From positions 1 through 35,259 of IMG/VR virus record IMGVR_UViG_3300001748_000010: a stretch of DNA of 35,259 nt; one strand, given 5' to 3'. This document shows positions 1,005-33,348 of the stretch, piece after piece. The notes under the pieces are model-generated. The model was given only the letters and a program-made list of their open reading frames with translations. It ran no database searches and was not told where the DNA came from. The stretch is from a virus. Numbering within the stretch: position 1 is the first letter of the stretch; the number at the start of each line of letters is the position of its first letter. A program made the translations under genes and the position numbers.

Positions 1005-1187
1005 TTCGGCATATTTAGCCTCTTCGAACTTGGAACGTGTCGTGTGGTAAGCCATCAGCATTGCAGCAAACTCAGGGAATGTTTCCCAATCAGGTCTGCC
1101 GTGTGTATCAAATATGTAGTCAATTTCAGTGTCGAGTGCTACCAGTATGGCGTTGACTTGTTTCTTTGGTAGGTTAAGCGTTATCAT
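942..1187 (-). CDS. Hypothetical 81-aa helical protein
   Basis: The ATG at 1187 overlaps the TGA of the upstream zinc-motif gene by four bases (ATGA). The N-terminus (MITLNLPKKQVNAILVAL) looks like an amphipathic helix. The C-terminus is acidic and carries the AALRIK segment shared with the next gene. There are no cysteines or membrane segments. Unrecognised family. Confidence 0.7.
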   Translation of the reverse strand: MITLNLPKKQVNAILVALDTEIDYIFDTHGRPDWETFPEFAAMLMAYHTTRSKFEEAKYAEEAALRIKEDYDAFETEVGDF

Positions 1188-1510
1188 CTGTCGTCTCCAT
1201 CATAACCATGAAATTTGATATATTCTCTTATCTTATCTTTTGCTTCTTTAACGTGACCATATATGTCATCTAACGTGCTGTCAACTATGTCGGCATTCTC
1301 TAAGATTTTAGCTGATTCATTTAGGAACGCCAAGATATCCAAGCTGGTAAATTCAGATAGGACATGTAGGTCACCTTCACCATCACAGACATCACACTTA
1401 CCATAGGTGCTATCTATCCAGCCACCGTTCGCAAAGTCTGTGACCGGTTTGTCGTATTCGGCAATGCCGCCACCGTTACAGGCGAGACAGGTTCTAATTA
1501 TCGTTGCCAT
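1184..1510 (-). CDS. Small protein with DnaJ-type CxxCxGxG zinc motifs
   Basis: The frame extends upstream to 1549, but the ATG at 1510 has an AAGGAGA box six bases away, giving 108 aa. Two half-motifs are visible: CLACNGGG at residues 8-15 and CDVCDGEG about 30 residues later. Together they can bind one zinc ion, as in the DnaJ cysteine-rich domain. The rest is an acidic helical C-terminal tail. A role in protein or nucleic-acid binding is inferred from the zinc motif only. The polymerase at 6044-7591 carries the same kind of motif. Confidence 0.75.
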   Translation of the reverse strand: MATIIRTCLACNGGGIAEYDKPVTDFANGGWIDSTYGKCDVCDGEGDLHVLSEFTSLDILAFLNESAKILENADIVDSTLDDIYGHVKEAKDKIREYIKFHGYDGDDR

Positions 1511-1667
1511 CGGTTGTCTCCTTGTCATTAGAAGGGAAAAGTCGTACATCCAGTCCTAGTTTGTCCGCCCTTCGTTGGAGTTCTTCGGGAATAGGTTTGC
1601 CTAGCATCTGAAGTCGCTTTGCAATAGAACCCACCCACTCCCTATTAAGGTTGTCGTAATTACTCAT
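1494..1667 (-). CDS. Short hypothetical protein (57 aa)
   Basis: The ORF runs from ATG at 1665-1667 to TAG at 1494-1496, with AGGAG seven bases upstream. It encodes a basic N-terminal half (NREWVGSIAKRLQMLGKPIP) and an acidic tail. It overlaps the genes on both sides by a few bases, as the whole cluster does. Spacing, ribosome site and coupling make it credible. No known family. Confidence 0.7.
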   Translation of the reverse strand: MSNYDNLNREWVGSIAKRLQMLGKPIPEELQRRADKLGLDVRLFPSNDKETTDGNDN

Positions 1668-1830
1668 CGGTTATCTCCTGTACTCTCAACACTTTGGTAT
1701 TTTCACCACCGACTAAGCCCACCATATCTATCTGGGCTTTTATCTGTGCCTCATATTCTGTGTTAGCGTGGACAATAACTTCACGAGTTGTTGTCGCCTC
1801 TACCTTAACTTCCCAAGTTCTTTCAGACAT
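1660..1830 (-). CDS. Short hypothetical protein (56 aa)
   Basis: ATG at 1828-1830 is preceded by a strong AAGGAG box with seven-base spacing. The product starts MSERTWEVKVEATTTREVIV and reads as two beta strands followed by a helix (EYEAQIKAQIDMVG) and a strand (NTKVLRVQEI). That is the pattern of a small alpha/beta fold. It overlaps the next gene by eight bases. Function unknown. Confidence 0.72.
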   Translation of the reverse strand: MSERTWEVKVEATTTREVIVHANTEYEAQIKAQIDMVGLVGGENTKVLRVQEITDE

Positions 1831-1831
1831 A

Positions 1832-1933
1832 TTAATACTCCTTCAATGTATCTATTACCAGATAAATAACTATAGCTAAACTCACCACCAGATACCCTAT
1901 AACAAACAGGTCGTCCATTCCCACGTCGGGCAT
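1832..1933 (-). CDS. Single-span membrane peptide (33 aa)
   Basis: ATG at 1931-1933 follows an AGGT box about seven bases upstream. The peptide is MPDVGMDD followed by one hydrophobic span (LFVIGYLVVSLAIVIYLVI) and a short charged tail ending KEY. A longer reading from an upstream ATG would give 46 aa. It is probably an inner-membrane micropeptide of the leftward cluster. Confidence 0.55.
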   Translation of the reverse strand: MPDVGMDDLFVIGYLVVSLAIVIYLVIDTLKEY

Positions 1934-1964
1934 TTGGTTACCTAAACAAACCAAAGTCTGGCAG

Positions 1965-2204
1965 TCAAGCATAATATCTGCCTTCCCAGTCTTTTATCTT
2001 GAACTTGTATTGCATAGCCCTCCTACGGCTACAAACAATAATACCACCAACCCAGACCTCGTTGTCTGCAACCCTCACGCGGCGTAATCTTTCACCGTGT
2101 ACCTTGTCGGCTGCATCTAGAGCAAACGAACTGGATGGGTGCGGGTTGCTGACTATCGGTCTGGTGAACGGATGCTGGATAACGTACCATGAGGGATTAG
2201 CCAT
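1965..2204 (-). CDS. Hypothetical 79-aa protein
   Basis: The start is coupled to the upstream gene (TAATG at 2202-2206). The central part, with DAADKVHGERLRRVRVADNEV, resembles a small strand-helix module with many Arg residues. The C-terminus (KFKIKDWEGRYYA) is basic and aromatic. Not recognised. Confidence 0.65.
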   Translation of the reverse strand: MANPSWYVIQHPFTRPIVSNPHPSSSFALDAADKVHGERLRRVRVADNEVWVGGIIVCSRRRAMQYKFKIKDWEGRYYA

Positions 2205-2491
2205 TATCCCTGCTCCCGCACATCAAAGTTAAACTCGTGGCGCAACCTGTCTTTTGCATCAGATAGTTCTTGTAGGTCGTGGGCAGTAACAGCTTTGATA
2301 CCGCCCATGTCAGGATACAAAGCAGTCTCTAGAATCTCGTCTAGCAACTCATATACCTTGATGACAGCAACCCGCTGGTCGAGGGACAACTTTGCTATGC
2401 GGTTACGGCGTTGGATGCGGTCTTTTTCACGCAAGGCTGCGAAGTAAGCAATGCGTTCATCAGGTGTCATGTTCTCTAGTTTCTTAGCCAT
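2204..2491 (-). CDS. Hypothetical helical 95-aa protein, first gene of leftward operon
   Basis: The frame is open back to 2602, but the ATG at 2491 is chosen. A GGAG box lies eight bases upstream, and the proposed promoter at 2522-2550 would place the transcript start at about 2515, inside the longer reading. The protein is almost entirely helical and charged (TPDERIAYFAALREKDRIQRR and later HDLQELSDAKDRLRHEF), with no cysteines and no membrane segment. Function unknown. Confidence 0.7.
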   Translation of the reverse strand: MAKKLENMTPDERIAYFAALREKDRIQRRNRIAKLSLDQRVAVIKVYELLDEILETALYPDMGGIKAVTAHDLQELSDAKDRLRHEFNFDVREQG

Positions 2492-2521: not shown

Positions 2522-2550
2522 CCAATATCGGAAACAAAAAAGGGTGTCAA
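2522..2550 (-). promoter_or_regulatory. Sigma70-type promoter for the leftward small-gene operon
   Basis: On the minus strand TTGACA (2545-2550) is followed after 17 bases by TATTGG (2522-2527). It begins right after the T run of the terminator at 2552-2586, so transcription is stopped and restarted here. It resembles the rightward promoter at 3456-3484: both read GTTGACAC followed by a T run and a TATT-type -10 box. Confidence 0.6.
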
Positions 2551-2551
2551 C

Positions 2552-2586
2552 AAAAAAAAACGAGGCCAGAAATAAATCTGACCTCG
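2552..2586 (-). terminator. Rho-independent terminator, leftward
   Basis: The minus-strand RNA forms a ten-pair stem, CGAGGUCAGA with UCUGGCCUCG including one U-G pair, with a UUUAUU loop. Nine T residues follow. The U-G pair would be a C-A mismatch on the plus strand, which supports leftward use. Confidence 0.85.
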
Positions 2587-2818
2587 CTTCCCAACCAACC
2601 AAGGAAACAAAGGGTAACCACTCCCCTTGCTTTTACTAAGAGTGCAGAGTAATCGCCATGAGGCAATCTGTTCTAACTCTTTTTATGCAGCGTGTTACCA
2701 CGCTCAAAATCCTGTTGTTTCGGTCACTTTTCAGCGACATTCTCCACTTCAGGACTATGCTACCCTACGAACTTAAATTTAAAGTACAGACATTACTGTC
2801 ACGCTCCATAATTTAAGC
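2552..2818 (-). ncRNA. Candidate structured non-coding RNA with GNRA-capped helices
   Basis: This stretch without a convincing gene can fold as minus-strand RNA into a run of helices. 2810-2817 pairs with 2772-2779 (eight pairs). 2789-2800 is GACA-GUAA-UGUC. 2750-2755 pairs with 2709-2714 and encloses 2723-2738, GUCGCU-GAAA-AGUGAC. 2689-2704 is AGCGUG-GUAA-CACGCU. 2676-2680 pairs with 2646-2650 around 2652-2667 (AUUGCC-UCAU-GGCGAU). 2624-2628 pairs with 2610-2614. The terminator hairpin closes the series. Several helices contain G-U pairs that become C-A mismatches on the other strand, which points to the minus strand as the RNA. Three loops are GNRA. The first helix overlaps the end of the upstream gene. 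I cannot assign a known class; it could be a 3' UTR, a small RNA or a ribozyme-like element. Confidence 0.6.
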
Positions 2819-3256
2819 AACCTCGTAAGGTGTCCCTAGTTTTACCAGCTTCTCACGGTTGTTGTCAAGCCACTTTCTGCAATCATTTTCACTTTTTCCC
2901 ACGAACACGGAAATGTCCATTAAGTAATCTACACAATTCTTTTTCTTCACCTGTTCGCGGTCAGTCTCTCCGATTCGAACAGATGATATCGGTGCGTTGA
3001 CAATCCACGAACCATCTTTGCGTTGCCATACTTCGATGGTAGGTTTCTTAGTCTGTATAGATGCTTTGTCATTATCTTCATCCAATGCTTCAATGTAAAG
3101 TTCGATTGCGTCACGCATTAAATCACCTACACTAACTTGCTCCAAGCTTTTCTTTTGCAATCGTGCAGCGTGTCCTGCTAGACTGTCATATTGTTCGACA
3201 GACATTAACAGGTTATACGTCTTCGTTGGGTCAGGTATCTTTGCCGGTCTTCCCAT
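2813..3256 (-). CDS. Putative ribbon-helix-helix-like regulator
   Basis: Two adjacent ATGs are possible; the second (3256) has an AAGGAA box at better spacing. It gives 147 aa. Residues 1-60 start MGRPAKIPDPTKTYNLLMSV, a strand, followed by helices EQYDSLAGHAARL and VGDLMRDAIELYIEAL. That strand-helix-helix order is the layout of MetJ/Arc or CopG-type DNA-binding proteins. The C-terminal half (EVWQRKDGSWIVNAPI and more) is unrecognised. Its position next to the divergent control region suits a regulator. The DNA-binding call is an inference from pattern, not from a search. Confidence 0.6.
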   Translation of the reverse strand: MGRPAKIPDPTKTYNLLMSVEQYDSLAGHAARLQKKSLEQVSVGDLMRDAIELYIEALDEDNDKASIQTKKPTIEVWQRKDGSWIVNAPISSVRIGETDREQVKKKNCVDYLMDISVFVGKSENDCRKWLDNNREKLVKLGTPYEVA

Positions 3257-3380
3257 CATTCATTTCCTTCTTTGCAAGTTTATCTAATTTAGATTTCTTT
3301 TTATCTGGGACAGTTTTATGTTTGTATTTTTTATCCCTTAATAGTTTAGCTATAGGGTTTATTTTAATATTAAAAGACAT
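3231..3380 (-). CDS. Short basic protein (49 aa)
   Basis: The frame is open to a TTG at 3431, but the ATG at 3380 has AGGGAA eight bases upstream and gives the compact, strongly basic protein MSFNIKINPIAKLLRDKKYK and so on. Its 3' end overlaps the start of the regulator-like gene by 26 bases. A lysine-rich product of this size may bind nucleic acid or partner proteins; function unknown. Confidence 0.6.
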   Translation of the reverse strand: MSFNIKINPIAKLLRDKKYKHKTVPDKKKSKLDKLAKKEMNDGKTGKDT

Positions 3381-32859: not shown

Positions 32860-33348
32860 TTACATCAGGGATGCGCTTGCTGATACCATAACGCCAACCA
32901 ACAAGGCTATTGCAACCAGTATAACTCCACCTACCACAAGAAACATCTTAACTGATTCCATAAACTCGTTATGTTCTTGTATGGCTTGCCGACGTGCTTT
33001 TAGGGCTGCTTCTTTTGCTTCTTGGATTCGTCTGGCTCGTTCATCAACGATACCCTTCCAAGTTCCCGGCCCAAACCGCATGTCAATCATCATGGATACC
33101 TCTTGCATCTTTTCTTGTGCAAGCTTGGCATCAATTGTCTCTTGGGCAACCGACTGAACTCCGAACTGGTCGGTTAGACCGCTGCCTGATTTCTTGCTTC
33201 GTTGCTTTTGTATTTCTTTTTCGCCACGAAACAAATCGTCAATTTGACTCGCAATCTGTCCGATATCTTGTACGGTAGAAATATTGGACTTGATAAAGTC
33301 TACACTTTGTTTTACCAAAGCAATCCCGGCAAGGGTTTCGGCAATCAT
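32860..33348 (-). CDS. Hypothetical protein with C-terminal membrane anchor (162 aa)
   Basis: The ATG at 33348 (MIAETLAGIALVKQSVDFI) follows AAGGAA. The middle is a charged, Ala/Lys/Glu-rich helix (ERARRIQEAKEAALKARRQA), and the C-terminus is one membrane span (MFLVVGGVILVAIALLVGVM). Residues from DQFGVQSVA to the end align with the partial gene at the right window edge, so the two are paralogues on either side of the lysis genes. Function unknown; an envelope or virion membrane protein is possible. Confidence 0.7.
   Translation of the reverse strand: MIAETLAGIALVKQSVDFIKSNISTVQDIGQIASQIDDLFRGEKEIQKQRSKKSGSGLTDQFGVQSVAQETIDAKLAQEKMQEVSMMIDMRFGPGTWKGIVDERARRIQEAKEAALKARRQAIQEHNEFMESVKMFLVVGGVILVAIALLVGVMVSASASLM

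Follow-up and report, generated by a model that had tools for sequence, protein, structure and literature searches.

The stretch between positions 2552 and 2818 of IMG/VR record IMGVR_UViG_3300001748_000010 holds no convincing gene and can be folded, as minus-strand RNA, into a series of helices. This raises the question of whether it encodes a functional RNA and, if so, what such an RNA would do for the phage. The window (i.e., the whole stretch of DNA analysed, 35,259 nucleotides long) is a 35-kb virus record. It carries genes for primase, DnaB, and polymerase, and one stretch of tail-fibre sequence shares 81% identity with HMO-2011; on these grounds, we grouped it with the HMO-2011-type marine phages. 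Our preferred answer, to which we give a probability of about 0.78, is that positions 2552–2831 encode an sRNA acting in trans by base pairing, through which the phage represses the translation of its own leftward genes.

The sequence-only reading of this locus had described a structured RNA on the minus strand of 2552–2818, and the folding results agree with it. Indeed, the MFE was −95.2, whereas dinucleotide shuffles averaged −67.4 ± 4.6 (z −6.1), and none of the 200 shuffles folded as well. When the terminator was left out (2594–2831), z was −4.7 for the minus strand and −2.1 for the plus strand; considering the parts separately, it was −5.2 for module B alone, −4.4 for the 5' hairpin (H0) with module A, and −5.9 for the seed with the terminator. 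The helices that had been named and their GUAA, GAAA, and GUAA loops were all present in the MFE or centroid structure, with minor register differences in the 2646–2680 helix. The list had overlooked an outer helix, 2823–2831 with 2762–2770, and because of this helix we place the start of the RNA, very likely, at about 2831. The RNA had also been considered unassignable to a known class: in the strict search, no Rfam family reached the gathering cut-off, and known Rfam families were discarded on this basis. A permissive search returned terminator-like matches only; the best, L20_leader, shares a GC-rich terminator and U run with our RNA, but it covers the terminator part only and scores 24 bits vs a cut-off of 58.7.

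Homologous loci were collected via the neighbouring primase and then via the protein encoded by ORF2, the C-terminal part of the upstream gene, and the two sets contained 51 and 32 distinct units. The core unit was found wherever a contig covers the site (83 distinct units), in the order promoter-like site in the last ORF2 codons, hairpin H0 over the stop codon, spacer, and terminator. The 5' strand of H0, ACCUUACGAG (2822–2831, minus strand), covaries and occurs in nearly all 83 units; it includes the predicted 5' end of the sRNA, A2831, the A of ACCNUACGA. The 3' strand, UUCGUAGGGU (2762–2771, minus strand), is supported by relatives, covariation, and the fold. In the relatives, the third base of a Pro codon pairs with the UTR in H0 as U-A, U-G, G-C, C-G, A-U, or G-U. 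Two contigs (L004 and L007) have retained module B and lost the 3' strand of H0. The rho-independent terminator (2552–2592, minus strand), already recognized in the sequence-only reading, has a 16-bp stem and a U9 tail, with double changes at 6 of 13 aligned pairs in 20 relatives.

Covariation in homologues had been proposed as a check on the RNA, and the core helices (H0 and the terminator) do covary. RNAalifold, applied to 20 diverse members, recovered both unaided, with double changes at 9 of their 20 pairs. Over the core, 97% of cells were paired and the covariation score was 0.471 vs 0.245 ± 0.019 in shuffled data; when slid, the score was no more than ~0.16. A covariance model built on simple members detected the core in left-out loci and gave no match in the first 14 kb of HMO-2011 or HTVC033P. 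The spacer GUUUCCUUGGUUGGUUGG (2591–2608, minus strand) is pyrimidine-rich, single-stranded in most predicted folds, and complementary to phage translation start sites; we refer to it as the antisense seed.

The GNRA-capped helices, described earlier as part of a possible new RNA, are real in the window, but they are not the part conserved across phages: they belong to optional, lineage-specific modules. The RNA is structured, as claimed, but does not form a uniform class: the window carries an enlarged version of a phage sRNA gene that its relatives share. The presence and absence of blocks A, B, and C was seen in the same 3' flank of 16 contigs carrying the upstream gene. Module A (2771–2818, minus strand) is a GUAA-loop hairpin lodged in the loop of H0, found in a handful of genomes and missing from most relatives; in L178, its stem carries two compensatory pairs while the apical part is identical. 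Module C (2608–2629, minus strand), more widespread than A or B, is a hairpin whose stem varies yet stays paired in 14 relatives, with an invariant UGGUUA loop (from the alignment, with pairs judged by eye). This loop looks like a protein- or RNA-binding one. Block D is a different structured insert within the stop-codon hairpin of L056, L058, and L087 (CAAGUURCGUUGAUUCYGG...CCRGAAAYACA), unrelated to the other modules; in L056 and L087, a second, complete core hairpin lies downstream of it. When modules A, B, and C were considered as extra seeds, no TIR complementarity was found; they are extra domains outside the seed.

Module B (2629–2760, minus strand; 132 nt) is a structured insert that folds in three parts, its loops including GAAA and GUAA, known only from five contigs (the window, L001, L002, L004, and L007) and in two sequence versions. 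These differ by eight substitutions, which break no pair and include one compensatory pair (P = 0.011 for unbroken pairs, against random substitutions of the same kinds). Covariation in modules A and B is modest, with A in few genomes and B in only two versions. Could module B be a small mobile or catalytic RNA (a ribozyme or a non-autonomous element) that landed here by chance? Its presence and absence among close relatives, very stable fold, and GNRA loops would be coherent with this. Nevertheless, we find this doubtful: pattern scans of IMG/VR returned the same contigs or chance coding matches only, a scan of 85k bacterial and archaeal species found none, a target-site duplication is not clear, and no Rfam ribozyme matched.

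A small early gene (2813–3259, minus strand; 148 aa) has the conserved sRNA unit at its 3' end, where it holds H0 and the putative sRNA promoter. In the window, this gene fuses an N-terminal ORF of 65 aa, RHH-like in our own reading, to ORF2 (~85 aa); in relatives, the two ORFs are separate and overlapping. The gene had no match in Pfam or PHROG and was absent from the named phages searched, where blastn gave only a 24-nt match in its flank; no relative of ORF2 was found among the 85k bacterial and archaeal species scanned. Contig L001, 99.96% identical to the window, differs within this gene by a net one-base deletion, which is possibly a slip of sequencing or assembly.

Of the two promoters discussed here, the sequence-only reading had caught the promoter-like site (TTGACA-N17-TATTGG, 2522–2550, minus strand) ahead of the next leftward operon and missed the one inside the upstream gene. 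The latter (2839–2868, minus strand) comprises TTGACA at 2863–2868, 18 nt, and TG-n-TAAAAC at 2839–2847, with an A-rich, UP-element-like tract upstream of the −35 and still inside ORF2 (2871–2900, minus strand). Synonymous constraint was evaluated on 41 ORF2 representatives (<90% identity), taken by protein similarity without requiring the promoter. The codons making TTGAC were Leu CTT in 34/34 cases, the other seven being GTT (Val), and Asp GAC in 41/41, with z values of 29 and 12, respectively; those making TG-n-TA reached 22 (GTG) and 14 (nTA), and the GGA-AAA-AGT codons of the A-rich tract 14–20. The spacing would set the start near the first A of H0. A generic promoter scan did not list this site because its −10, a weak TAAAAC, lacks the final T. 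An own promoter for the sRNA is thus inferred from these constraints, with no transcript data. Folding, homologue covariation, and a conserved promoter-like site and terminator together back the leftward-read structured RNA first proposed. As for the next operon, its post-terminator promoter is missing in L159, L160, and L173, which keep the sRNA unit; there, the next gene begins directly with a ribosome-binding site. Just past the sRNA, positions 1184–2491 (minus strand) form a strip of tiny ORFs, hypervariable between relatives.

If the spacer is an antisense seed, which genes would it recognize? A complement to the cognate spacer, 9 nt or longer, was present in the TIR at 31 of 690 gene starts in the same loci, vs 1 in within-gene windows, 1.6 ± 1.6 with shuffled spacers, and 15.8 ± 4.3 with swapped spacers. 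The new loci gave 31 of 569 genes vs 4 and 1.6 in the controls; their spacers come largely from clades already known, and part of the enrichment derives from the DnaB start region, which overlaps the primase coding sequence. Grouping by orthology confined the signal to few families: DUF932 (PF06067), phrog_8676, HTH_11, and GP88-like. In these four families, cognate pairing exceeded swapped pairing (p 0.0003, 0.0007, 0.0003, and 0.014), whereas four control groups showed no difference in dG (p 0.55–0.87). The test was thinned to one genome per spacer clade; the genomes are related, the p values are approximate, and the families were chosen on the same data. Mean duplex energy showed a sharp dip centred on the start site in comparison to the 120 nt on either side. 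Genome-wide, the duplex-energy rank of the target TIRs was only about the best 5–15%, and the best-target energy per genome was not significant against shuffles, whereas the pooled, ortholog-based, and swap tests were.

At single loci, one example is a 14-nt perfect match between the seed of L076 and the DUF932 Shine-Dalgarno region. Matched changes of seed and target were found in L038 (CUUUCGUUG with CAACGAAAG), in L085 and L088 for the HTH gene (CGUUUCUCCU with AGGAGAAACG), and in L076 (UUGUUUCCUUUCCU with AGGAAAGGAAACAA). Complementarity is weak in several genomes, with little in L087, L090, and L092. The window's contig stops before the main target genes, so its own targets were inferred from close relatives, such as L004 (9-nt match to DUF932) and L005 (GP88-like, dG −22.9). 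As judged from predicted folds and comparisons of relatives, the unit has both an accessible seed and a target complementarity that coevolves with it. RNA structure, promoter-like constraint, terminator, and TIR-specific and cognate-specific complementarity are what the sequences themselves can establish.

Two further complementarities were observed. In the L156–L167 clade, the GUUUCCUUU seed is complementary to AAAGGAAACCGACATG, the opposite-strand ribosome-binding site of primase, and primase may therefore be an additional target there. In the window, AACCAACCA, at the start codon of a minus-strand gene that begins at 33348 among leftward, probably late, genes, is perfectly complementary to the seed over 9 nt.

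According to the trans-acting sRNA reading, the promoter lying within the final codons of the upstream gene would produce a discrete transcript from the stop-codon hairpin (~2831) to the terminator (~2552), ~280 nt long in the window and ~80–115 nt in most relatives. The hairpins would shield and present the seed, which is single-stranded, rich in pyrimidines, and placed directly ahead of the terminator. It would pair with the Shine-Dalgarno/start regions of several mRNAs from the same leftward region (those of the DUF932 protein, the MKKRIHINQH protein, the HTH protein, the GP88-like protein, and perhaps primase in some clades), most likely blocking ribosome binding. The separate transcript, the repression, the use of Hfq, and the timing are inferences, no expression data being available. 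Only tentatively, and with less than even confidence, we extend this to an sRNA that switches the translation of several early genes of its own phage, with joint seed/target turnover throughout this abundant group of marine phages, exchangeable folded domains (A, B, and D) plugged into or beside one hairpin, and module B as a new functional RNA domain.

Instead, the unit could merely form a structured 3' UTR with its terminator, shielding the mRNA of the upstream gene and insulating the next promoter, with no promoter or targets of its own. Its position directly at the stop codon, the terminator, the weakness of the −10, and the tolerance of module insertions would all suit this. We consider it unlikely, since the codons upstream of the hairpin are constrained at synonymous sites in a way that forms TTGAC, TG-n-TA, and an A-tract, and since the spacer coevolves with distant start sites. 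It is very unlikely that the unit is a cis attenuator or antitermination element (put- or lambda-6S-like) for the downstream operon. Promoter, structured RNA, and terminator do precede that operon, and read-through could matter in the three genomes without a post-terminator promoter; however, most genomes have a fresh promoter straight after the terminator, we saw no alternative pairing that could act as an antiterminator, and the trans complementarity would remain unexplained. Least credible is that module B codes for a 34-residue peptide (MSLKSDRNNRILSVV...), whose frame, from the ATG in GGAGAATG to the stop, is retained in L004, but most in-frame changes alter residues, the SD-like GGAG is too near the ATG, and the substitutions respect RNA pairs. 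The stretch, as first stated, contains no convincing gene: a conserved protein frame is absent, and this weak 34-codon frame is the only one.

Other classes were rejected as well: a type III toxin-antitoxin RNA, on the lack of direct repeats and on the own terminator followed by a new promoter, and a riboswitch or cis leader, on the new promoter that, in the window and in most relatives, comes straight after the terminator.

In bacteria, 3'-UTR-derived sRNAs may have an internal promoter in their parent gene. Our sRNA resembles them in the putative promoter within the 3' coding end, the 5' hairpin over the stop codon, and the shared terminator; it differs in that the parent is a phage gene, the targets lie in the same genome, and the seed turns over with compensating targets. 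Base-pairing sRNAs are already known in phages, including PreS, VpdS, sar, OOP, and c4 (PMC12197685), and the window's sRNA is therefore a new family within that kind. As with PreS of lambda and VpdS of VP882, it would be a small phage RNA pairing with mRNAs in trans (PMC12197685), and it shares with PreS the early-region position. Unlike for these two, its best-supported targets are several of the phage's own genes and not the host dnaN; moreover, it is unrelated in sequence, belongs to another phage group, and carries optional structured modules. OOP (lambda), sar (P22), and c4 (P1) also regulate phage genes by pairing, sar at a translation start, but they either are cis-encoded and perfectly complementary over a long stretch or control an adjacent gene, whereas the new sRNA would use a short seed on several genes kilobases away. 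A full-text literature search returned no report of sRNAs in HMO-2011-type phages, and the terms are absent from the main comparative genomics paper (PMC9038755).

What appears to be new, from the comparisons made here, is a family of sRNAs from a marine phage group of high abundance, with multi-gene targets in the same genome, seed-target turnover, and accretion of modules. With its named targets and dozens of naturally occurring seed/target variants, the conserved sRNA would offer a rare case of seed-target coevolution of a phage sRNA that is readable from sequence alone and testable by swaps. The finding also suggests RNA-level timing of early genes in these abundant phages and a locus at which sRNAs acquire folded domains.
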